In this document: positions 1 through 57,635 of the stretch, one piece after another
Layout: every line of letters begins with the position of its first letter
Position numbering within the stretch: the stretch's first letter is position 1
Source of the DNA: a virus
IMG/VR virus record: IMGVR_UViG_3300047498_000060
Span: 62,001 to 126,000 of that record
Reading direction: 5' to 3' (one strand)
Length of the DNA: 64,000 nt
Notes under the pieces: generated by a model
The model's input: only the letters and a program-made list of their open reading frames with translations
What the model was told of the DNA's origin: nothing
Database searches by the model: none
Made by a program: the position numbers and the translations under genes

Positions 1-265
1 CCTTCGTCGGATCGTACGTCCTGAATGCCTCTATGGCGTGCTTCTGGAGCTGGGAGCGGAACGCGCTCTCCGGCACCATCGGGGCCTTCCAGGTCGAGAC
101 TTTCCTAGTGAAGACTGGTGCGTAGAGCTTGAGGAGTGGATCGAGATCCGTCGGCTTCTGACCGTTCTCTTTCCACTTCTGCCACAACGTGAGCTCGTGC
201 TGCTTACGTGCTGATGGGGCCCCGGCCTCTTTCGAGCCCAGGTACTCACTGAGCGGATTGCTCAT
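1..265 (-). CDS. Partial sigma-factor-like protein (N-terminal part; C-terminus outside window)
   Basis: The reading frame opens with ATG at 265 and is still open at the left edge, giving 88 residues. It contains LWQKWKENGQKP, then LDPLLKLYAPVF, and near the cut AIEAFRTYDPTK. In my recollection this pattern (LW.KW, LLK, A..TYDP.KG) is the start of sigma-70-like proteins seen in some large phages, where the TYDP segment leads into a region-2-like domain. The domain itself lies outside the window, so the assignment rests on the N-terminus only. It is the last gene of the short operon 1775 to 1. If right, it is a candidate reader of the two-box promoters described in the findings. Confidence 0.42.
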   Translation of the reverse strand, partial: MSNPLSEYLGSKEAGAPSARKQHELTLWQKWKENGQKPTDLDPLLKLYAPVFTRKVSTWKAPMVPESAFRSQLQKHAIEAFRTYDPTK

Positions 266-1788: not shown

Positions 1789-1810
1789 CGAGGGCAGCGT
1801 AAAGCCCTCG
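1789..1810 (-). promoter_or_regulatory. 5' leader hairpin touching the Shine-Dalgarno of the 1775 gene
   Basis: Seven-base perfect inverted repeat CGAGGGC / GCCCTCG with an eight-base loop. On the transcript it ends directly at the GAGGAGG ribosome site of the 1155-1775 gene, so it could tune initiation. There is no U-run, so a terminator is less likely. Confidence 0.35.
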
Positions 1811-1811
1811 A

Positions 1812-1843
1812 AGTACTTATCCCCTACCCTATGCCGTCCTTGA
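1812..1843 (-). promoter_or_regulatory. Two-box promoter copy (TCAAG ... GGGGATAAG)
   Basis: On the minus strand TCAAG (1839-1843) is followed 23 bases later by ATAAG (1816-1820), preceded by GGGG. Identical geometry to seven other copies in the window. It overlaps the stop of the 1824-3557 gene and would drive the operon 1775 to 1. Confidence 0.6.
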
Positions 1844-3557
1844 ACGCCCCGGGAATGCCGATGCCGAATTTTGCTCCCTTCGGTTTTGCTATTTGAGCTA
1901 TCGAAGGACCAGGAGGTGGGCTCGCTTTTGGGGCTCCGACCTGCGTAGTCTTCTCGAGCTGCGACGCCGGTGTCAGTCCTGCGATGGCTTCCTTCCGCAT
2001 CTCACGGAGCTCGGCGACGAACTCAGCCAGCTTCTCCGTCGACATGGAGAGCATCGCCTCCTTGTTGACCGGCCCCTTGCCCAGACTCTTGCCGTCTTTG
2101 TCTGTCTCGATGACCGCATCACCTTCGAGCTTGAAGTGACCCGCGTGCTTCGCGTTGAGGTTCGCCGGACGGAAGTCACCAGCGCCGTAGGTCACGAAGT
2201 CGGGCAGTGCGTCACCGTCCTTCTCTTTGCCTGCCTTCAACCTCTCCGGAGGTGGAGTCTTGTCCGTGTCCTGGCTGCAGTCGCTGTCGAAGGCGCCGTT
2301 CTTCTGGATGGCCGCGCCGAGCTGCGGAGCTCGGAAGGAGGGGATGTCCGAGGCCATCATGAAGTTGCCGCGCGTGGGTGCACTCGCGGCCACCTTCCCC
2401 TCATCGAACGTGATGCCACCGGGAGCCACCTCTTGCTGCCTCTCGGCCAGGCTGCGCAGTTTACCGCGCTCATGTTCCTGGTACTGAGGCCAGTTGCGGA
2501 TCATGTCCTTGCGCATGGCCTTGGGTAGCTTGGGCCCCTGTCCGTACGTGGCCCACGGCGCGGCTTTATCCCCGTACATGACCTGCAGCTGCTCTGCGTG
2601 CGCAGGACCCTCGCCACCAGCGCGCATGCCCTGAAAGTACTTACGACCCTCCTCTGCGCCGGGGCCTTCAAGACCCGCGACCATATTGTGCTCCTTGTGT
2701 ATGACGCTGGGGCTGAAGTGAGAGAAGTACGGAGCAGGGCTGCTCTTTGTGCTGCGCTCGAAGCCTTCATGCACTCCCGTAAGGATGTTGGCGGCACGCT
2801 GCTGCGCGGCACCTGCGGGGGGGACTATTGGCAACGCTCCACTTGCGTTTGCGCGAGCAGCCCACCCAGACATGCCGCCGGGAGGCATGAGAATGGCGCC
2901 TCCCGCATTGCCGATGTACTGACGTGTGCCTTCTACCTGGGCATTGCCCTGCTCGATTATTGATTCGACTTGCTCTGTAGTGCCACCCAAAGCGCGCGTG
3001 TTCTCTGCCACGATCGCGGGACGCTGACGCAGCATGCCCATCTGCGCGGGGCGTGGGAGTGTTCCCGGGCCGTTGAGCGCGGCCATCTCACGAATCCCCA
3101 TCGCGCCAGGTGTTGGCGCTTCCATCACATGCTCCAGCACCTTGGCGGAGGGCTTGATCTTGTTTCGCAACGGAGCAATGCGTTTGTACGCCTGCTGCAA
3201 CGTGTCCAATGTGGCCCCTACCTTTTCTTCGGGCTGATGCAGGTAGCCACGCAGAACACGCTTCTCGGCGTGCCGATCGAGCGCACCACGAACCAGGGGA
3301 ACTCCCCCCATACCAATGGCTCCCGCAGCGGCAGCGCCCAAGGCAGAGCGACGTGTAACCGAGCGTCCACCCCCCTCGATGGCGCGGCTGACGACATGCC
3401 CGAGAGCTCCGGCGCCCGCACCAAGAGCGCCGTACCGGGCGACCTGTCCTCCTGTCGGCGTGTTCTTCTCGAGCTGGTCAAGCCTGTCCAGAGATCGGCG
3501 CGCCTCCTCATCCGAGACGGCACTGAGCTTCTCGAAGCAGGCGACGAAGAGGCGCAT
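1824..3557 (-). CDS. Large unknown protein with KLSA-type leader, probably virion-associated
   Basis: 577 residues. The first 13 residues (MRLFVACFEKLSA) are a variant of the CDELEKIA leader on its neighbours. Residues about 35-90 are Gly/Ala-rich and could insert in a membrane (GALGAGAGALGHV, then SALGAAAAGAIGMGG). The rest is Pro/Gly/Gln-rich low-complexity with a charged helical C-terminus. Its start overlaps the stop of the upstream gene (TGATG), and it ends the five-gene coupled operon 7138 to 1824. Long low-complexity proteins of this sort in phages are often injected or internal head or tail proteins; that is inference. No enzyme motif seen. Confidence 0.72.
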   Translation of the reverse strand: MRLFVACFEKLSAVSDEEARRSLDRLDQLEKNTPTGGQVARYGALGAGAGALGHVVSRAIEGGGRSVTRRSALGAAAAGAIGMGGVPLVRGALDRHAEKRVLRGYLHQPEEKVGATLDTLQQAYKRIAPLRNKIKPSAKVLEHVMEAPTPGAMGIREMAALNGPGTLPRPAQMGMLRQRPAIVAENTRALGGTTEQVESIIEQGNAQVEGTRQYIGNAGGAILMPPGGMSGWAARANASGALPIVPPAGAAQQRAANILTGVHEGFERSTKSSPAPYFSHFSPSVIHKEHNMVAGLEGPGAEEGRKYFQGMRAGGEGPAHAEQLQVMYGDKAAPWATYGQGPKLPKAMRKDMIRNWPQYQEHERGKLRSLAERQQEVAPGGITFDEGKVAASAPTRGNFMMASDIPSFRAPQLGAAIQKNGAFDSDCSQDTDKTPPPERLKAGKEKDGDALPDFVTYGAGDFRPANLNAKHAGHFKLEGDAVIETDKDGKSLGKGPVNKEAMLSMSTEKLAEFVAELREMRKEAIAGLTPASQLEKTTQVGAPKASPPPGPSIAQIAKPKGAKFGIGIPGAFKDGIG

Positions 3558-12605: not shown

Positions 12606-12630
12606 GTTCTCCATTACAACGGCAAGTGCT
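12603..12630 (-). promoter_or_regulatory. Weak two-box promoter copy (GGAGAACAAGGC)
   Basis: GGAGAACAAGG fits the downstream box; the upstream box is poor (AGCAC at the expected distance). It would serve the 10880-12568 gene but overlaps the terminator of the HNH gene. Confidence 0.3.
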
Positions 12631-13192
12631 TCCAACTTTCACCTCGAACGATCGCGCATACATTCCTTGAGCTTAGCCCAAACTCGCGGGCAAGGGCGCT
12701 CTGTGTAGCGCCGCCCTTATGGCAGGTGCGGATGTAGATGACGTCGCGATCAGCGAGCTTCGCCTTACCTGCGTTTTCCCCTCGTGCTGCAGCCCCAGGA
12801 TGGATGCGGAAGCCGTGTCGATTGCCTCGCGCTACTGATTCGGGATGCGTCGTGGATCCATGTCGCTCCCCTTTAGCTTGCCGCCCCTTCTGATCTCGGT
12901 CTCGATTGTTCTCGAGACGCGTGTCCAGGAAGATGTGGTCAGGACGCACGCAAGACGTGTTGTCACAGTGATGCAGCGCGCATAGTTCGTCTGGAACAAT
13001 CTGCCCTGCCAAACGCAGAGAAGTACGAGACACGAGCTGCATCGTACGGCCTACGCGAATCAACCCGTAGCCTTGCAGGTTCTTGAACGCCAACCACAGC
13101 CAGCACGGCCCGAGCTCCGGCTTGTGTGCAGGGACCGGGCCGTTCTTGTCGACCTTCTCCCAGAACCTTTCTTCTAGCGGACGTTGTTTCAT
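12614..13192 (-). CDS. Free-standing HNH homing endonuclease
   Basis: 192 residues. The N-terminal half matches the HNH_3 type: RFWEKV at 9-14, CWLW at 30-33, GYGLIRVG, then LCALHHCDNTSCVRPDHIFLD with the two His of the ββα-metal site and an N-rich tail (RLENNRDRD). The C-terminus holds a helix-turn-helix (SALAREFGLSSRNVCAIVRG) as in NUMOD-type DNA-recognition modules. It sits between structural genes with its own two-box promoter upstream and terminator downstream, as expected for a mobile cassette in a late operon. Confidence 0.85.
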   Translation of the reverse strand: MKQRPLEERFWEKVDKNGPVPAHKPELGPCWLWLAFKNLQGYGLIRVGRTMQLVSRTSLRLAGQIVPDELCALHHCDNTSCVRPDHIFLDTRLENNRDRDQKGRQAKGERHGSTTHPESVARGNRHGFRIHPGAAARGENAGKAKLADRDVIYIRTCHKGGATQSALAREFGLSSRNVCAIVRGESWKHLPL

Positions 13193-13209
13193 CTGGTCAC
13201 CTCATCCTT

Positions 13210-13237
13210 CTTGTCTCGGATCAGATGACGACGTTGC
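13210..13237 (-). promoter_or_regulatory. Two-box promoter copy (GCAAC ... GAGACAAGAAG)
   Basis: On the minus strand GCAAC (13233-13237) precedes ACAAG (13210-13214) by exactly 23 bases. It overlaps the last codons of the 13221-13490 gene and drives the HNH gene starting at 13192. Confidence 0.6.
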
Positions 13238-17116: not shown

Positions 17117-17167
17117 CGGGAACGCGCCTCTACAGGGTGGGGCTCAGCTTACCACGCAACAGACCCT

Positions 17168-17205
17168 GCCACTCCGCAGCAATTACGGGGACAAGACACA
17201 TGAGA
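17168..17205 (+). promoter_or_regulatory. Two-box promoter copy, imperfect upstream box
   Basis: CGGGGACAAGACACATG at 17186 matches the downstream box; GCCAC lies at the expected upstream place. It precedes the plus-strand group 17236-18795. The interval 17117-17235 holds nothing else I recognise. Confidence 0.45.
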
Positions 17206-17679: not shown

Positions 17680-17831
17680 ATGCGCATGCGCGACGTGAAG
17701 GGCCGCGGTGCAGGCAAGTACGCTGGAATCTGTTCTCTCTGCTCTCGGGCTCACTGCGGGGGCCCCTCATACCCACACCGCAGTACTGCCCGTGCTGCAA
17801 ACAACCCCTACCTAGGAAGGATGAGTCATGA
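17680..17831 (+). CDS. Zinc-ribbon miniprotein split by a -1 frameshift
   Basis: ATG 17680 has GGGAGAG just upstream. The frame gives [16 protein letters not shown], then CSLC; it would run out of frame into the lipoprotein gene. A slip of -1 at G GGC CCC (17760-17766) joins it to a frame giving [15 protein letters not shown] and stopping at TGA 17831, which overlaps the next ATG as ATGA. The joined 50-residue product has CSLC and CPCC, a complete four-cysteine zinc ribbon. Either a programmed frameshift or a one-base difference would explain it. Confidence 0.5.
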
Positions 17832-18532
17832 CCACCATCAAAGCGGCACTGCTTCTTGTTGTAACAACGCTCGTCGCCTGCTCCGGTACGCCGGCAAGCA
17901 CGACAGAGCCGGACAGACTCAGCCCGTCAAACTGCACCATCCAATCCATCGACGCCGGCGTGAAGGGCGGATCCTCGAGCGGCAGCGCAGGGAAGATGGG
18001 TGCGATGGGCGCCGAAGGCCCCCAAGGTCCTTCCGGACCGGTCGGTCCCCAGGGTCCTGCTGGGCCCGCGGGTCCCGTTGGTGCAACGGGAGCTACTGGA
18101 CCTGCCGGAGCCATCGGGCCACAAGGCCCTGCCGGAGAGCAAGGTCCCGCCGGCCCTGCTGGTCCCCAGGGACCTCAAGGCCCCGCCGGCATGGGCGTAC
18201 AAGGTCCTGCGGGCCCCAAAGGAGCTGCTGGAACAGACGGTGTTCTGACCAGCCGCACTCAGCTCTACACTGTGAAGAGCTCGGCCGTGAACGTGGGGTA
18301 CAACCAGCTCATCGGACCCACGGCAGCGACAGCAAGCTGCCTAATGAACACAGACATCCTGCTCACGGGCTGGTGCGTTCCGGCCCTACTGCAGGGTTCG
18401 GGGCAGTACTGGTACGGAGTGGGCCTTGATGCGACCGGCAGCGCGATGGCCTGGGAGTGCAACGGAGTGAACAACGACAATCCATCAACGTTCAGCCTTC
18501 AGGCGTTCGCGACCTGCATCGCGGTGCCATGA
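17828..18532 (+). CDS. Collagen-like lipoprotein
   Basis: 234 residues. The signal peptide ends in lipobox LVAC (Cys about 18), so lipidation and anchoring in a host membrane are expected. Residues about 60-135 are Gly-X-Y repeats rich in Pro ([13 protein letters not shown]). The C-terminal 90 residues form a separate Trp/Cys-containing domain ([14 protein letters not shown]). In phages, collagen-like repeats are usually in tail fibres; with a lipobox this looks rather like a cell-surface protein made in the infected host. Coupled to neighbours by ATGA on both sides. Confidence 0.85.
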
Positions 18533-19322: not shown

Positions 19323-19361
19323 GCAAGTTTGGGGCGTCTTCGGAGATAAGAGTCATGGAGG
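19323..19361 (+). promoter_or_regulatory. Two-box promoter copy (GCAAG ... GGAGATAAGAG)
   Basis: GCAAG at 19323, then ATAAG at 19346, 23 bases apart. It precedes the gene at 19371. The 45 bases around ATAAGAGTCATGGAGG to the start codon resemble the leader before 20300. Confidence 0.65.
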
Positions 19362-19370
19362 TACATTCAC

Positions 19371-19781
19371 ATGCCTACGCACACCGACAACGATTCACAG
19401 CTCACCCGTCTCCAGGCACTGAAGAACGAAGTCGCGGCAATGACGCCTGCGCAGAAGAACTTCATCAACGGCGAGCTCCCGGAGGCAGCGCTGCTCTTCG
19501 GCGAGAAGTCTGCGACCAAGTTCGAGCTCCGGGAACAGGAGCGACGCCTCGACGCTTTCAAGTCTCACGTCGAGTCCCGCATCAGCGAGACCAGACACAA
19601 GGTCGACATGCAGACCCTCGACCTCAGCTCTCAAGCCCGTAGCATCGACGCGCTCAGTGCCCGTGTCAGGCAGCTTGAAAGTGTCGCCCCTGTCAAAGAG
19701 ATCCTGGTGATCGGCTTGGCAGGGGTGTTCTTCGTGTCTCTCATCGCGGCTGTGGCAAACGCCGCTGCCGACCCGGTCTGA
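19371..19781 (+). CDS. Coiled-coil protein with C-terminal membrane anchor
   Basis: 136 residues from ATG 19371 after GGAGG. Residues about 45-108 are a charged helix with heptads (LSSQARSIDALSARVRQLE). Residues about 113-130 are hydrophobic (ILVIGLAGVFFVSLIAAV), giving a tail-anchored topology. It is bracketed by a promoter copy and a terminator, a one-gene unit. Such small membrane proteins in early phage regions often act on the host envelope or superinfection; that is inference. Confidence 0.75.
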   Translation: MPTHTDNDSQLTRLQALKNEVAAMTPAQKNFINGELPEAALLFGEKSATKFELREQERRLDAFKSHVESRISETRHKVDMQTLDLSSQARSIDALSARVRQLESVAPVKEILVIGLAGVFFVSLIAAVANAAADPV

Positions 19782-19786
19782 CACGA

Positions 19787-19830
19787 GCAGAAGGAGCTAC
19801 CCACAAGGGGTGGTCTCCTTCTGCTTAGCC
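19787..19830 (+). terminator. Terminator hairpin with TTAGC tail
   Basis: GCAGAAGGAG pairs with CTCCTTCTGC (10 bp), followed at once by TTAGCC. Directly after the stop at 19781. Confidence 0.65.
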
Positions 19831-19839
19831 CTCAGACCC

Positions 19840-19878
19840 TCAATTTCTGCCTCTATTCGGAGATAAGGAGAGTGGAGG
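19840..19878 (+). promoter_or_regulatory. Two-box promoter copy (TCAAT ... GGAGATAAGG)
   Basis: TCAAT at 19840 and ATAAG at 19863, 23 bases apart; upstream of ATG 19887. Confidence 0.65.
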
Positions 19879-19886
19879 AAACCAAC

Positions 19887-20102
19887 ATGTTCATCATCGT
19901 ACCGCTCATCGTGGGGGCCTACACCCTCACTGTTTCGGCAAAGGCCGCCACGTCCGAGGCGGTCAAGAGGATGCTTCCCCGACCCATCATGATCATCGCG
20001 GTCGTTGACCCTTCTGATGGCGAGGTGCTGATGCGACAGCCCGTGAAAATGGGAACGCAGGACGTCGCTGATCTCGGAGCCTGCCTGCAGGGGATGTCAT
20101 GA
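19887..20102 (+). CDS. Small membrane-anchored protein, 71 aa
   Basis: ATG 19887 follows GGAGG by eight bases. The N-terminus MFIIVPLIVGAYTLTVSA is a signal anchor or transmembrane helix; a second moderately hydrophobic stretch (PIMIIAVV) lies at 33-40. Its stop overlaps the next ATG (ATGA). Function unknown. Confidence 0.72.
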   Translation: MFIIVPLIVGAYTLTVSAKAATSEAVKRMLPRPIMIIAVVDPSDGEVLMRQPVKMGTQDVADLGACLQGMS

Positions 20103-20614
20103 GGAAGGAAACATTACAGCAGCAGCTGGCCAAGCAAGTCGGCTTCATCGACAGAAGCAAGCAACCCGTCACGGCGGACGCTCCCATCCAAGGTGCCGTG
20201 CATCTGCTGCCCGAGATTGAGCAAATCCCTACTGATTCCCGGGATAAGAGTCATGAAGGTAACAACACCACTCACCAACCCAAGCTGGAGGACATTCACA
20301 TGACTACGCACAGCACCGAGACCGCCACGAGCAAGCGCATCAATGACGAGCGCATCGCCCAGCTCGACACCGAGCGCGCCGAGCTCAGGAACCTGACCGG
20401 GTTCACCCCCGAGCAGATCGTCTTCATCAAGGATGCAGTAGGGTCTACCGCAGACAGCATGCACAAGCTGACCGCAGCACTCACGGCGAAGAAGAGCTAC
20501 ACCGACCACGCCGTCGAGGTCGGCAAGGTCGCCGGCGGTGTCGCGCTGGGCCTCGGTCTGGCGTTCGGCGTCAAGGCCGGCGTGGACTATTTGTTCTTCA
20601 AGCCGGTCGGCTGA
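20099..20614 (+). CDS. Membrane-anchored protein with internal in-frame start at 20300
   Basis: The long frame (171 aa) is coupled to the gene before. An internal two-box promoter (20221-20259), a GGAGG and an ATG at 20300 lie in the same frame and would make a 104-residue short form starting MTTHSTETATSKRI. The C-terminus VAGGVALGLGLAFGVKAG is a likely membrane helix; the middle is charged helix. The leader before 20300 resembles that before 19371. Both forms may be made; the short form alone is the safer call. Confidence 0.65.
   Translation: MRKETLQQQLAKQVGFIDRSKQPVTADAPIQGAVHLLPEIEQIPTDSRDKSHEGNNTTHQPKLEDIHMTTHSTETATSKRINDERIAQLDTERAELRNLTGFTPEQIVFIKDAVGSTADSMHKLTAALTAKKSYTDHAVEVGKVAGGVALGLGLAFGVKAGVDYLFFKPVG
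20221..20259 (+). promoter_or_regulatory. Two-box promoter copy inside the 20099-20614 frame
   Basis: GCAAA at 20221 and ATAAG at 20244, 23 bases apart, with GGG before ATAAG. It serves the internal start at 20300. Confidence 0.6.
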
Positions 20615-20625
20615 CGAACGGAAGG

Positions 20626-20663
20626 AGCGCCACCCCGTGAGGGCTGGCGCTTTCTTCTTAGCC
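20626..20663 (+). terminator. Rho-independent terminator with TTAGC tail
   Basis: AGCGCCA and TGGCGCT close a longer stem with CCCC-GTGA-GGGC inside, followed by TTCTTCTTAGCCC. Ends the 20099-20614 unit. Confidence 0.75.
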
Positions 20664-20670
20664 CTAGCGC

Positions 20671-20709
20671 GCAAAGTCCTGCAGGAATGGGGGACAAGAA
20701 GTATGGAGC
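20671..20709 (+). promoter_or_regulatory. Two-box promoter copy (GCAAA ... GGGGGACAAGAAG)
   Basis: GCAAA at 20671 and ACAAG at 20694, 23 bases apart. The only thing before the next terminator is about 80 bases without a credible gene. Confidence 0.6.
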
Positions 20710-20790
20710 CCTGCTTCTCCCTCCAGCGGCAGTGAGCTCGGCGGCGTATACCCCCAGGTGCATGGGGGTATGCGCCGCTTCTCTTAGCTC
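20707..20790 (+). ncRNA. Candidate small RNA
   Basis: A two-box promoter ends at 20709 and a strong terminator starts at 20741. The stretch between them can encode only a ten-residue peptide (ATG 20703). The predicted transcript is roughly 80 bases, half of it the terminator stem. Ends are estimates from the motif positions. Confidence 0.4.
20741..20788 (+). terminator. Terminator hairpin with TTAGC tail
   Basis: GCGGCGTATACCCCC pairs with GGGGGTATGCGCCGC (one mismatch), then TTCTCTTAGC. The interval 20789-20902 after it is a leader of unknown promoter with an AT-richer patch near 20845. Confidence 0.75.
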
Positions 20791-20902
20791 TTGTGGCGGT
20801 CCTGCTTCTTTCGTCGTTCAGTTGTAGCAAGAAGACACGCATAAAAAGAGTTGCTTCCTTGGCAGTACACGGTAGTGTTTCAACAGAAAGGAGGACTACC
20901 CC

Positions 20903-21184
20903 ATGGATCTCGAACCCACTCTGTTTCCCAGCCCGATGTACGAGACCGCGAACGAGGCGGTTCTCCACTGTCTCGATCACTTGCAGAAGAACGGCTATGC
21001 CGCCTCAACTGCGAGCCTCAACGGGCTCCCTCCGGTGAACGAAGCGGTGGTAGGTCGTGTTGTGTTCCAGCAACTCACGGCGCTGCGTCCGCACGTTACG
21101 ACTACCTCGAAGCGTTACATCGACATCGCCCTCGACGCGCTCGGCCGCGCCCTGGAAATGCCGCAAACACGCGCCGTAGCCTGA
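20903..21184 (+). CDS. Small hypothetical protein, 93 aa
   Basis: AGGAGG stands before ATG 20903. The protein is mainly helical (AVLHCLDHLQKNGYAAST, YIDIALDALGRALEM) with no membrane segment. It stands between the candidate small RNA and the 21259 gene as a single accessory gene. Not recognised. Confidence 0.7.
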   Translation: MDLEPTLFPSPMYETANEAVLHCLDHLQKNGYAASTASLNGLPPVNEAVVGRVVFQQLTALRPHVTTTSKRYIDIALDALGRALEMPQTRAVA

Positions 21185-21187
21185 CCT

Positions 21188-21226
21188 GCAAAGCGTCCTC
21201 CAGATCGGGAACAAGAGCTGTGGAGC
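21188..21226 (+). promoter_or_regulatory. Two-box promoter copy (GCAAA ... CGGGAACAAGAG)
   Basis: GCAAA at 21188 and ACAAG at 21211, 23 bases apart; upstream of ATG 21259. Confidence 0.65.
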
Positions 21227-21258
21227 GTTGACTCAACAGCGCTCTGGTCTGGAGGACC

Positions 21259-22023
21259 ATGCACCTTTTCACTGTCACAGAGAACGTAGTATCTGGCTTC
21301 CGTCTTCGTCAGGGTCGGGAGGTCGACCCTGCGACCAACACAACGAGCGGCCCTGTGCTGGCACACATCAGCCAGCCGCTCTACTCCGCGGTCATCATCA
21401 CGCTCGAGTACGAGATGGCCGTTTGCCTTGGCGCCATGGGGCTCTGGGACAACCCAGAGCGCGAACCTGTGCTGCTGACCGCCGACGTCCAGTTCGCGGA
21501 CGCACGCGGCCTGACCAGCATTGATCTAGGCGTCACGGGTGAGTCCCCCTACGCCGACGAGGGCTGCACCGAGCCCCGCGCAGAGCAGGCGCTGGTACGT
21601 GTTCAAACAGCGGCAGGCGAAGGCGGACGTGTCGCCATCCTGCCTCGCCCGCGTACTAACTACGCAGAGGGCGACGTCAACCGGAAGTACGAGGAGTTCC
21701 CCCCGAACGGTGTTCAGTTCCTGGGGAGCGCAGAGGACGCAGCAGCAGCTCATCACGGACTGCACCACGAGATGGACATGCTGCTGCTGCTCGACTCTGG
21801 GGGACAGTTCTACATCGAACGCACCGGTGACCTCGATGGTGCGCCCGCCGTCTTCGTTGTTACGTGGGTGTGGAGGCCCAAGGACAAGGAGGGCAGCCTC
21901 ATCATGACCCCGAAGCGACGTCAGCCACGTCCAGAGACCTGGGGTTCGGTCGTAGAGTACACCGCGAAGGCAGAAGCTCAGCGCGCAAAGGCATGGCGCG
22001 AGACTGCTGCGGCGTACAGCTGA
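21259..22023 (+). CDS. Hypothetical protein, 254 aa
   Basis: CTGGAGG is close to ATG 21259. The sequence looks like a soluble alpha/beta protein (FTVTENVVSGFRLRQGREV, LYSAVIITLEYEMAV). An acidic/aromatic block LLLLDSGGQFYIERTGDLDG lies near the C-terminus. No motif of a known family identified. One-gene unit between a promoter copy and a TTAGC terminator. Confidence 0.7.
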   Translation: MHLFTVTENVVSGFRLRQGREVDPATNTTSGPVLAHISQPLYSAVIITLEYEMAVCLGAMGLWDNPEREPVLLTADVQFADARGLTSIDLGVTGESPYADEGCTEPRAEQALVRVQTAAGEGGRVAILPRPRTNYAEGDVNRKYEEFPPNGVQFLGSAEDAAAAHHGLHHEMDMLLLLDSGGQFYIERTGDLDGAPAVFVVTWVWRPKDKEGSLIMTPKRRQPRPETWGSVVEYTAKAEAQRAKAWRETAAAYS

Positions 22024-22029
22024 GCGGAG

Positions 22030-22060
22030 CGGCGCCCCACCGGGCGCCGTTTCTTAGCCC
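22030..22060 (+). terminator. Terminator hairpin with TTAGC tail
   Basis: CGGCGCCC-CACC-GGGCGCCG followed by TTTCTTAGCCC. The TTA in the tail is also the stop (TAA) of the facing gene 22054-22425. Confidence 0.8.
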
Positions 22061-22425
22061 TTCGCGTGTACCGGATGCCCGTTGACGGAGGGCTTCTTGT
22101 CCGCCGGCTTATCGACCTTCTTCGCCTCGGCCTTGGGCTTCGCGCTCTGCTTGCGGTCCGGGGAGAGTCCCTCGATCTTCTTGCCGACCTGCATGAGGAG
22201 CGCCTTCACGGCGCGGGCACAGGGACTGCAGAGGTCGTCGAAGATGGTCTCCGTCTTCACCCCGTCGAGCACGAGCCGTCCCACGAATGCAGGGCTACCT
22301 GCCAGGGAGACCGAAGCCCGGGACTCCTGGGAAGACGGGGGTGCCGGCGGGGGTGGTTGGGGTTCGGAAACCGTCTCCACTCGAGCGCACCGGCTGCACT
22401 GGATCTCTACGACTGTCTTGCGCAT
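22054..22425 (-). CDS. Zinc-ribbon-like protein, 123 aa
   Basis: CSRC near residue 10 and CSPC near 67 make a two-knuckle zinc site around a Pro-rich insert (PQPPPPAPPSSQE) and a beta segment. The C-terminus is Lys/Ala-rich (KPKAEAKKVDKPADKK), suggesting nucleic-acid contact. It overlaps the upstream gene by 131 bases in another frame. Confidence 0.65.
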   Translation of the reverse strand: MRKTVVEIQCSRCARVETVSEPQPPPPAPPSSQESRASVSLAGSPAFVGRLVLDGVKTETIFDDLCSPCARAVKALLMQVGKKIEGLSPDRKQSAKPKAEAKKVDKPADKKPSVNGHPVHAKG

Positions 22426-22624
22426 CGCCTTCTACCTTCTCTTCCAAGCGCGGCATCTTAGAGCGCTCCTGGACGTTGATGAGGAACCAACAGAACGTCT
22501 TCACGATGGCGATCTCGGCTCCGACAAGGGGCTCGTTGCCCTTGCCGTCCGAAACCGGCGTGGTCTGGAACCACTCATCGAACTCCTTGAGGATCGCGTT
22601 GACCCGTTGCTCGGTGGTCTTCAT
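22295..22624 (-). CDS. Hypothetical protein, 109 aa, long overlap with next gene
   Basis: Starts ATG 22624 with a weak ribosome site. The first 65 residues look real (RVNAILKEFDEWFQTTP, AIVKTFCWFLINVQE); the remaining third runs through the start of the 22054-22425 gene in another frame and is Pro/Gly/Arg-biased, as expected of shadow sequence. Divergent from the 22687 gene. Confidence 0.55.
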   Translation of the reverse strand: MKTTEQRVNAILKEFDEWFQTTPVSDGKGNEPLVGAEIAIVKTFCWFLINVQERSKMPRLEEKVEGDAQDSRRDPVQPVRSSGDGFRTPTTPAGTPVFPGVPGFGLPGR

Positions 22625-22640
22625 GAGTTCCCACAGTACA

Positions 22641-22679
22641 TCAACTTCTTGAACGTTTCAGAGAAAAGGAGGATGGAGG
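22641..22679 (+). promoter_or_regulatory. Two-box promoter copy (TCAAC ... CAGAGAAAAGG)
   Basis: TCAAC at 22641 and AAAAG at 22664, 23 bases apart. The following GGAGGATGGAGG is like that after the 19857 copy. Confidence 0.55.
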
Positions 22680-23490: not shown

Positions 23491-23523
23491 TTGGCGGGTC
23501 CACCGCTAGCAGATGGACCCAGT

Positions 23524-23598
23524 GCTCCCTGATGGACTCGAACCACCGGCCCATCACACCTCTCGGTGTGATTGCTCTGCCAACTGAGCTAAGGGAGC
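23524..23598 (-). tRNA. tRNA-like gene with no anticodon loop
   Basis: Acceptor GCTCCCT/AGGGAGC, D arm GCTC-AGTTGGCA-GAGC, and T arm GGTGG-TTCGAGT-CCATC are intact. In place of the 17-base anticodon arm is ATCACACC-GAGA-GGTGTGAT, an eight-pair stem with a GNRA tetraloop. There is no seven-base loop and no U33, so it cannot decode. It shares the D-arm sequence with its neighbour, suggesting a common origin. Confidence 0.6.
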
Positions 23599-38209: not shown

Positions 38210-38347
38210 TCAACGGTAGAACGTAAGAACACACAGCAGAGCTACCCAGACCGCAACGAAGGCGGCGTACTTCCAGCCGGCTCTGTGGATGGGGCGATGA
38301 GGCTCGCTCATCTTTCGTAACGCTCGATCACTGAACTCTAGGGCCAT
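38210..38347 (-). CDS. Small membrane protein, 45 aa
   Basis: GAGGAAG precedes ATG 38347. The C-terminus (YAAFVAVWVALLCVLTF) is a membrane helix; the N-terminus is soluble and basic. It lies behind a two-box promoter copy. The larger frame upstream is unlikely. Confidence 0.62.
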   Translation of the reverse strand: MALEFSDRALRKMSEPHRPIHRAGWKYAAFVAVWVALLCVLTFYR

Positions 38348-38350
38348 GGC

Positions 38351-38390
38351 TTCCTCACCGCTCTTGTCCCCTGACTCTCTAGATACTTTA
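38351..38390 (-). promoter_or_regulatory. Two-box promoter copy facing left (CAGGGGACAAGAG)
   Basis: GGGGACAAGAGCGGTGAGG on the minus strand, before the 38210-38347 gene. The upstream box at 23 bases is TAAAG, a near match. It stands back to back with the copy at 38391. Confidence 0.45.
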
Positions 38391-54215: not shown

Positions 54216-55190
54216 TCAGTGCACAACAGGAGAAGCCAAAGGAACAGGCACCACGTTGTGCGAGTCGCAATCTGCACACTGGAATGCGCCGCCCTTGCCG
54301 TGCTTGCCCTGGCGGAGCTGAAGATTGGAGATGTCGTTGTTCTCTTTGTCCTGTGGGTTGACGTGGTGGACAGTCTCGCTGTCCGTGAGTGGGCGTCCGA
54401 GATGGCGTGCCATCACGAGGCGGTGCTCGAAGACATAGTGAGCCCCATCGGACCGCGTCACGCCCATGCAGTAGTACGGATCCTCTGGATACACGCGCAC
54501 CATGATGTATCCGCGCGACTTGCAGCGGCCACCCTTCCAGTTCGGCGACGCCGCACCGACGCGTGTGTTAGCCGCACGAAGCACGAGACCAGCACGATGC
54601 AGATGCTTTGTGGCCGTAGAGATCCCCACACCAAATGCCGCGGCTACCTGCGGCACTGTCGATCCTGCTTGATACATCGCTACCATCTTATCTGGCATGT
54701 CACCTGTGACCTTGGGCGGTGAACCACGGTGACCGCGTCGAAGACCGAGCCGCTTCAACCCGATGCGCACAGCATTCACCGGGATCTGTAGAGAGTTAGA
54801 GATGCTCACCGAAGTACTTCCTGCGCGGAAACAGTCAGCGATGGTGAGAAGCTGCGCCTCGGTCAGAACAACAGCCGTTGCAGCTACTCCGGGCGCGTAC
54901 GCTTTCTCGCGCAGAAGGGCCTGCCGGACGCAGTCCTTGGACACCCTCAATGTCTCAGCAATACCGCGCAGTGTCTGTCCCTCACCGTGGAGACGTATGA
55001 CTTCGTCCGTGACCTTCTGGTCTGGACGCGAACCACGCACCATCTGGACGCCCGCACGGCGGAGGGTGTTGCGAATGGTCTGCGGGTTCACGTGCAACAC
55101 CGCGGCGATGTCTTCGGCGATCTTGCCTTCAGCGTACATCGCGATCACGGTCTTCTCTTCCTCAGGGCCAATCTTCCTTGCGTACGGCAT
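54216..55190 (-). CDS. HNH homing endonuclease with four tandem HTH repeats
   Basis: 324 residues from ATG 55190 after GAGGAG. Four similar units at about 1-50, 55-96, 108-150 and 162-205 each end in a helix-turn-helix (for example IAEDIAAVLHVNPQTIRNTL and TVPQVAAAFGVGISTATKHL). The C-terminal nuclease (EHRLVMARHLGRPLTDSETV then HHVNPQDKENNDISNLQL) is HNH_3 type. A long DNA-reading array explains site specificity. Inserted between two head genes, with its own promoter and terminator. Confidence 0.85.
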   Translation of the reverse strand: MPYARKIGPEEEKTVIAMYAEGKIAEDIAAVLHVNPQTIRNTLRRAGVQMVRGSRPDQKVTDEVIRLHGEGQTLRGIAETLRVSKDCVRQALLREKAYAPGVAATAVVLTEAQLLTIADCFRAGSTSVSISNSLQIPVNAVRIGLKRLGLRRGHRGSPPKVTGDMPDKMVAMYQAGSTVPQVAAAFGVGISTATKHLHRAGLVLRAANTRVGAASPNWKGGRCKSRGYIMVRVYPEDPYYCMGVTRSDGAHYVFEHRLVMARHLGRPLTDSETVHHVNPQDKENNDISNLQLRQGKHGKGGAFQCADCDSHNVVPVPLASPVVH

Positions 55191-55226
55191 GTGTTTTCTC
55201 CTCAAGTTCCTTGTACCCGAACCCAG

Positions 55227-55254
55227 AGGATACTGCACTAAAGAAGACAGTCAA
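55227..55254 (-). promoter_or_regulatory. Sigma-70-like promoter for the HNH gene
   Basis: On the minus strand TTGACT (55249-55254), 16-base spacer, TATCCT (55227-55232). The start codon lies 37 bases downstream. Confidence 0.4.
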
Positions 55255-56510: not shown

Positions 56511-57635
56511 TCAGTACGTGTTGACCTGGGGGAAGAAGAGGCCCGCGTCGACCTGGTTGTTCGGAGCGCCGAGGGCGTCCTCGCTGACCGGGATGAAGTT
56601 GGGCAGGAGCGTGTCCGCGTTCGTGACGGGGTTCGCATCGGCGGAGTAGAGCTCCAGCTTGCGAACCGCGGCGATGTTGAGGAGCCCCATGCCCACGTCT
56701 TCCCAGGCCTGGAACGTGATGACGTTCGCGATCTTGTCGATGTAGAACTTCGTGTTGTTCAGGATGTAGAACTTCCCGAAGAACTCCGGCTTCGTGAACA
56801 CGTAGATGTTCCCGGGGCGGAGGATGTCCGTCTTGATCGTACGGATGTACGCACGCCCGAGGAGCGTGTTGTACTTGTACCCGTCGACCGCGGTCTCGGA
56901 CTGGATGCGGTCGCCGAAGTCCTCGACCGTCCACTGGAGAACGTCGTCCCAGTCGACCTCCGTGGTCAGGAGGCGCTCCGAGCGGAGACGATTCCCGTCC
57001 AGGAGCTTGAACAGGTTGACGAGGTCGGGGCGCTGGACCGGGCGGACCGTCGCGTCGTTCGTGGTTGCGTTGCGCGCGAGCTCGCCCTTGCGGATCGAGA
57101 ACTCGACGACACTGCCGTTCTTGACGTTGGTCGCGTTGAGCGCCGTTGCGACGCCCCCGTTGGCCTGCATCTGAAGGGCCTGGCACGCGGCCTCGGTGTT
57201 GATCGTGAACTCGTGGTCCTCGATCTCCTGGATGTCCTTCACCGAGTTCTCCTCGATGATCTTGGTGATGGGCATCTCGTACGCGAGAAGCTCCTGCTCG
57301 GTCTTCTGGAAGACCTCGGAGCTGATCGTGTAGAAGCCGATCTCCGCCTTGGGGCCACGGATGAAGCGAGCCGTGGGGGTGCCACGGAAGTCCATCGTCA
57401 TGGCCTTGGACTGGGGTTCGATGTCCACGATCTTGACCAGCGTGTCGTGGTTGACGGAGCGCTGGCAGTCCGTGCGGGTCACCTGCTCCGGCGGAAGGAT
57501 CTTCCGCGTGAACGAGACCTCGCGGAGACGGTCGCGGATGTACGAGCCGCCGTACTCTGCGAGCTTCTCCTTGATGTCGCTCGAGCCGAGCTTGGTGCTG
57601 AACAGGCCGTTGAGAACGTGTGCCGGAACACTCAT
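56511..57635 (-). CDS. Major capsid protein (probable, HK97 fold)
   Basis: 374 residues. Early on SYIRDRLREVSFTRKILPPE, then IEPQSKAMTMDFRGTPTARF and a long E-loop-like helix region; the C-terminal half has beta segments (AYIRTIKTDILRPGNIYVF, FGKFYILNNTKFYIDKIANV). The order protease, scaffold-like proteins, decoration candidate, then this gene is that of an HK97-type head block, and its size fits. It is followed by a strong terminator, as highly expressed capsid genes often are. Confidence 0.78.
   Translation of the reverse strand: MSVPAHVLNGLFSTKLGSSDIKEKLAEYGGSYIRDRLREVSFTRKILPPEQVTRTDCQRSVNHDTLVKIVDIEPQSKAMTMDFRGTPTARFIRGPKAEIGFYTISSEVFQKTEQELLAYEMPITKIIEENSVKDIQEIEDHEFTINTEAACQALQMQANGGVATALNATNVKNGSVVEFSIRKGELARNATTNDATVRPVQRPDLVNLFKLLDGNRLRSERLLTTEVDWDDVLQWTVEDFGDRIQSETAVDGYKYNTLLGRAYIRTIKTDILRPGNIYVFTKPEFFGKFYILNNTKFYIDKIANVITFQAWEDVGMGLLNIAAVRKLELYSADANPVTNADTLLPNFIPVSEDALGAPNNQVDAGLFFPQVNTY

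Follow-up and report, generated by a model that had tools for sequence, protein, structure and literature searches.

The window analysed in this study comprises 64,000 nucleotides (bases 62001-126000) of the 183,295-base IMG/VR virus record IMGVR_UViG_3300047498_000060, a genome labelled G000 here, and it raises the question of what reads a two-box element that recurs at a fixed spacing in front of its genes. A first-pass annotation had listed eight such pairs, KCAAN followed by AYAAG or AAAAG, and had proposed a phage-specific promoter class with sigma-28 geometry, read by a phage or a group-3-like sigma; it also pointed to a sigma-like gene at the left edge. All eight pairs are present, with exactly 23 bases from box start to box start (Table 1). 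Overall, it appears quite probable that the element is an early promoter class whose reader is a sigma-70-family protein encoded by the phage, working on the phage's own fused RNA polymerase; both proteins are probably injected.

The window contains 8 copies of the bare pattern [GT]CAAN-N18-A[ACT]AAG, compared with 1.3 +/- 1.2 in 100 dinucleotide shuffles (largest 6), and 7 further copies, mostly with the same flanking bases, lie in the remaining genome. A weight matrix was trained solely on the eight window sites, and the 119 kb of the genome beyond the window served as a held-out test set. There, 12 matches exceeded 14 bits; shuffled sequence gave 0.47, and reversed sequence none. Ten of the 12 fall outside called genes (the calls come from a simple in-house caller), and only 20% of that DNA is intergenic. 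With a refined matrix, 21 sites in G000 score above 25 bits, the next best reaching 14 bits; one of them, at 55214 on the minus strand, is missing from the earlier list. An unseeded expectation-maximisation search of the upstream regions of G000 recovers the same two-box motif. Four copies that had been listed as weaker fared unequally: 17186 on the plus strand (A at 17191; 28 bits) and 38367 on the minus strand (34 bits) pass the matrix, but 38391 on the plus strand fails, and 12607 on the minus strand was rejected as a promoter, being part of a terminator hairpin.

The pairs stand as drawn earlier, but the downstream box is longer, CGGRGAYAAG, and is followed by TGGAGG at a fixed distance. 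The full consensus is KCAAG-N13-CGGRGAYAAG-RRNNR-TG-GAGG, and the promoter would consist of KCAA(G) as the -35 box, CGGRGAYAAG as the -10 box some 13 bases further on, and TG at the predicted start (+1); a ribosome site follows immediately after it. The two boxes are held at the fixed spacing (~16-18 bp) typical of sigma-70-family promoters. Bases between them are without conservation; therefore, the element is not a copied repeat. When GAYAAG is taken as the hexamer at -10, +1 is expected at the conserved TG, which occupies the predicted start in 67 of 87 sites, consistent with a start ~7 nt after the -10 box. The start codons of open reading frames (ORFs) mostly follow 20-26 nt after the A of AYAAG. 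Leaders in the G000 group would therefore mostly measure only ~9-15 nt, the transcripts starting at the ribosome-binding site or beside it. The sites lie on the gene strand, just upstream of genes and mostly outside coding DNA, as sigma-70-family promoters do, and four or more stand directly 3' of hairpin terminators. The claim that all eight precede genes holds for seven, each of which stands before an ORF that has a ribosome site; the pair at 20671/20694 leads only a strong terminator-like hairpin. From this arrangement we infer that the element functions as a promoter and that transcription begins at the TG.

The fixed offset was examined in 92 intergenic sites from seven genomes, selected by the downstream half of the matrix alone. 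CAA is found at exactly -22 in 60 of the 92, and no other offset has it in more than 4; this comparison is cleanest for the six relatives, since the matrix training sites in G000 already had the upstream box. Each of six near-complete relatives carries ~20-30 motif sites. In 46 records picked solely for carrying the sigma gene, the compact pattern CAA-N16-GGNAYAAG occurs 196 times, as against 22 for the reversed pattern (table sums). The motif tracks the phage lineage across dozens of contigs, and in most relatives it stands opposite the start of the polymerase gene. The proposal of a phage-specific class is thereby supported.

The sigma-like gene at the left edge proved real. On its own, the G000 protein matches sigma region 3 in Pfam below the threshold (22.6 bits; cut-off 25.3), and none of the NCBIfam sigma subfamilies comes near its cut-off, the subfamilies being mixed. 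A profile of its family matches bacterial sigma factors with E = 4e-18 and aligns with SigA structures over regions 2-4 (positions 50-246), so that the family holds the conserved regions 2, 3, and 4 of sigma-70-family proteins. Of 11 family members, Pfam detects region 3 in all, region 4 in five, and region 2 in two. An AlphaFold model of a relative's sigma matches mostly sigma factors in the PDB; the overall TM-scores are low because the domains are flexibly joined.

The comparison with sigma-28 found no specific support. FliA/sigma-28 promoters read TAAA-N15-GCCGATAA and share with the present element the distance between the -35 box and AYAA, along with a similar GAYAA core; however, the boxes differ, the -10 sequence here being CGGRGAYAAG and not GCCGATAA. 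Sigma-70 promoters with a spacer of 17 bases have the same 23-base offset, and the family profile scores SigA-type factors at 4e-18 compared with 2e-9 for FliA. The sigma-28 label was therefore dropped, because sigma-70-family promoters in general have this offset and FliA is not the closest match of the protein.

The earlier reading, a phage sigma with its own promoter class, was right about the sigma gene but overlooked that the genome encodes its own multisubunit RNA polymerase. This is a fused beta-beta' chain of 2185 aa (genome 139155-145712, minus strand) with Pfam matches to Rpb2_6 (1e-58) and Rpb1_2 (6e-28) and the motif NADFDGD at residue 1432, as in multisubunit RNA polymerases. Alignment with cellular enzymes covers both the beta flap region and the beta' clamp-helix stretch; the latter, kept in the phage polymerase, is the place where sigma docks in the cellular ones. 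It may therefore be a complete phage holoenzyme that reads the promoters, as opposed to a phage sigma bound to a host core. Among IMG/VR loci, 43 were found with the polymerase and 80 with the sigma in an alignment-based sigma search; a single-sequence sigma search of viral contigs gave no match. The polymerase is also present in 39 of the 46 sigma records, and the other seven are 65-137 kb long and may be incomplete. A polymerase scan of GTDB genomes returned only distant cellular-type matches (24-32% identity), which therefore give no clue to the host, and megablast against phage records gave no match.

A cultured relative, Salmonella phage Arash (OQ632216), which has a laboratory strain of Salmonella as its host, has orthologues of the G000 polymerase, sigma, capsid, portal, and terminase. 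The G000 sigma matches Arash gp10 with E 1e-21, and the G000 polymerase is orthologous to gp206/gp216, the chain being split into ~1500 + 610 aa in Arash and in several contigs. In Arash virions the beta-like chain gp206 has the most spectra, and the beta' chain gp216 and the sigma gp10 were detected as well; a second sigma, gp196, is absent from the virion protein list (PMC10585845). No gp196-like sigma was found in G000 or in the seven relatives searched. The Arash paper describes no promoters (PMC10585845). The phage has a two-box motif of its own, TCAATAA ... GGTATAAG-NAA-NNTG, and GGTATAA occurs in 18 of its upstream regions where 0.8 are expected. Of the 39 Arash sites, 38 are on the minus (non-structural) strand; 27 sites are followed by an annotated start at a distance of 20-66 nt. 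Arash has its core structural genes on the plus strand, and the regions preceding plus-strand genes are enriched in CTAAAAT (8 vs 0.4).

A possible scheme for these promoters can be described as follows. The phage sigma would be bound to the fused beta-beta' RNA polymerase, its region 4 contacting the -35 box and its region 2 the -10 box. Both proteins would probably be injected with the DNA, turning on the early genes at once, because their orthologues are reported in Arash virions; the placement of 38 of 39 Arash sites on the non-structural strand also points to an early class. The core structural genes, together with the polymerase and sigma genes themselves, would be transcribed from other promoters. 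It seems moderately probable that the lineage injects a full holoenzyme (fused core + sigma) that reads -35/-10 promoters and carries out early transcription without the host polymerase, which would make it a sigma-dependent virion RNA polymerase.

Several points weigh against this scheme. On sequence alone, the host core enzyme could also be the partner of the sigma. The virion evidence comes from Arash, whose polymerase is only ~31-33% identical to that of G000, and according to the Arash authors abundant virion proteins may be mere carry-over (PMC10585845). In G000 and its relatives the motif sites lie on both strands, a clean strand separation being seen only in Arash. Even there, some motif-led genes encode proteins detected in virions (gp141, gp118, gp156); therefore, 'non-structural' is a majority statement. 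One relative with both sigma and polymerase, G019, yielded no site in the matrix scan, the simple pattern occurring there twice.

The alternative that survives best, though it is unlikely, is that, like T4 gp55 and SPO1 gp28, the sigma works with the core of the host RNA polymerase to read these promoters, and that the phage polymerase serves otherwise. Docking on a host core is plausible here, given that regions 2-4 resemble those of bacterial group 1-3 sigmas, and phage sigmas usually act on the host core enzyme. Such host-core use is also stated for jumbo phages without a polymerase of their own (PMC7598289). However, in this lineage a complete fused polymerase with the clamp-helix stretch accompanies the sigma in most of the records that carry it. 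The reported presence of both sigma and polymerase in the Arash virion likewise speaks for the phage holoenzyme.

A reader from the host alone, either sigma-70 or an alternative sigma such as FliA acting on a diverged host promoter, is quite improbable. The spacing equals that of sigma-70, and the Arash sequence TGGTATAAG resembles an extended -10 element; however, the base at -7 is G in most sites, and a T at that position is important for sigma-70. The consensus is neither TTGACA nor GCCGATAA, and the element follows the phage lineage over dozens of contigs, with -35 and -10 boxes that differ between Arash and G000. A non-promoter repeat (a mobile repeat, an operator, or a packaging or translation element) would account for the downstream end taking in the ribosome site and for some leaders being alike, but it is very improbable, given the unconserved bases between the boxes, the strict spacing and orientation to genes, the terminators directly upstream, the canonical distances of -35, -10, and +1, and the retention of the boxes in Arash, where the ribosome site is separate from the motif.

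Multimeric-RNAP-encoding Caudovirales (mReC) are tailed phages from IMG/VR whose beta and beta' subunits can be aligned with the cellular ones (Weinheimer and Aylward 2020, PMC7481178). From the similarity of the polymerase and the common IMG/VR origin, the G000 lineage is very likely the mReC lineage. The main text of that paper mentions neither sigma nor promoters (PMC7481178); the present analysis contributes both, a promoter class and a cognate sigma family. The polymerases of Arash and of Vibrio phages D69, D148, and D181 are orthologous to that of G000, and Arash shares the sigma gp10 as well. Arash differs from G000 in having the polymerase in two chains, GGTATAAG as -10 and TCAATAA as -35, and the extra sigma gp196.

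Phage N4 packages a polymerase in its virion and injects it to transcribe the early genes, as proposed for G000; however, the N4 enzyme is a single-subunit, T7-like polymerase that uses hairpin promoters without a sigma. The phiKZ/AR9 phages also encode multisubunit polymerases, one form of which is in the virion and reads early promoters (PMC7598289). Those polymerases consist of several chains, the genomes are described without recognisable initiation-factor homologues, and each early promoter consists of just one AT-rich element near -10 (PMC7598289); G000, in contrast, has a sigma homologue and a two-box promoter. Phages with multisubunit polymerases have thus been described without a recognisable sigma and with promoters unlike bacterial ones, whereas the present, widespread lineage appears to keep both a sigma and a bacterial-style two-box promoter. 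One fused core chain and one sigma would be a natural minimal system for studying the needs of sigma-dependent initiation, and early regulons would become predictable for dozens of uncultured phages.

In G000 the motif leads mostly small genes, as well as two HNH endonuclease genes within structural clusters, as would be expected of mobile genes with a promoter of their own. The features of the window are collected in Table 1.

Table 1. Predicted promoters, the genes behind them, and related features of the window (scores in bits; promoters run from the -35 box to the predicted +1; nt from the A of AYAAG to ATG).
Feature	Window position	Strand	Details
Sigma gene, 5' part	1..265	-	orthologue of Arash gp10; whole gene genome 61426-62265, 279 aa
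Gene, 206 aa	1155..1775	-	no family match; ATG 45 nt downstream of 1843 promoter
Predicted promoter	1809..1843	-	26.4 bits; -35 overlaps 3' end of upstream ORF 1824-3557
HNH homing-type endonuclease gene	12614..13192	-	promoter-led; ATG 22 nt downstream; PHROG HNH endonuclease E 3e-19
Predicted promoter	13203..13237	-	32.1 bits
Second-class candidate GYGNGGTANNNT	~17150	-	also genome 145687 (minus), 15424, 7079, 181477
Predicted promoter	17168..17202	+	28.3 bits; earlier listed as weak; opposite second-class promoter candidate near 17150 (minus)
Gene, 143 aa	17236..17667	+	ATG 45 nt downstream of 17168 promoter
Predicted promoter	19323..19357	+	38.6 bits; -35 GCAAG; A of AYAAG at 19346
Small gene, 136 aa	19371..19781	+	no confident family; ATG 25 nt after A at 19346
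Predicted promoter	19840..19874	+	38.9 bits; directly after hairpin-CTTAGC terminator (CTTAGC at 19824)
Small gene, 71 aa	19887..20102	+	ATG 24 nt downstream of 19840 promoter
Predicted promoter	20221..20255	+	41.4 bits
Small gene, 104 aa	20300..20614	+	ATG 56 nt downstream of 20221 promoter
Predicted promoter	20671..20705	+	37.6 bits; directly after terminator (CTTAGC at 20657); no convincing ORF behind
Possible short non-coding transcript	20705..20790	+	own predicted promoter; ends in hairpin + TTCTCTTAGC; very strong predicted hairpin
Predicted promoter	21188..21222	+	28.5 bits
Gene, 254 aa	21259..22023	+	no family match; led by 21188 promoter
Predicted promoter	22641..22675	+	36.0 bits
Small gene, 93 aa	22687..22968	+	ATG 23 nt downstream of 22641 promoter
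45-aa ORF	38210..38347	-	ATG 20 nt downstream of 38390 promoter
Predicted promoter	38356..38390	-	33.8 bits; -35 TAAAG
HTH-HNH endonuclease gene	54216..55190	-	in capsid gene cluster; promoter-led; ATG 24 nt downstream; HNH PHROG E 2e-22
Predicted promoter	55203..55237	-	26.9 bits; new compared with earlier list
Major capsid protein (MCP) gene	56511..57635	-	structural orientation marker; E 1.5e-35 to Arash MCP gp226; phrog_2522

When the regions in front of structural genes of the G000 group were searched for a late motif without a seed, mainly ribosome sites were recovered. Footprinting points weakly to a second candidate class, GYGNGGTANNNT, on the structural strand. This class is sometimes placed back to back with the early class, and at the polymerase gene both share a CTTGCA/TGCAAG box. 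In L012 and L131 (Arash), early GGTATAAG boxes share bases with late CTAAAATA boxes in head-to-head orientation (TATTTTAGGGTATAAG), for example at 139402 and 137626, and such an overlap could be a switch.

The terminators are of unusual form, a strong hairpin followed by TTCTTAGC, and are found at 19824, 20657, 20783, 22053, and 41303 on the plus strand of the window, among others. CTTAGC has a density of 0.40/kb between the genes of G000 and 0.04/kb inside them, a ~10-fold difference. A large terminase of 970 aa (L006:3424-6336, minus) contains a LAGLIDADG-like domain, possibly an intein or an inserted homing endonuclease, and a protein with a GH5 cellulase domain has a weak tail-fibre match (L002:698-2485, minus). 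The window also encodes a collagen-like protein with GPQG repeats and a lipoprotein-like start (17828-18532, plus) and, beside a tRNA-Cys, a tRNA to which ARAGORN assigns a four-base anticodon, gaga (23522-23598, minus).

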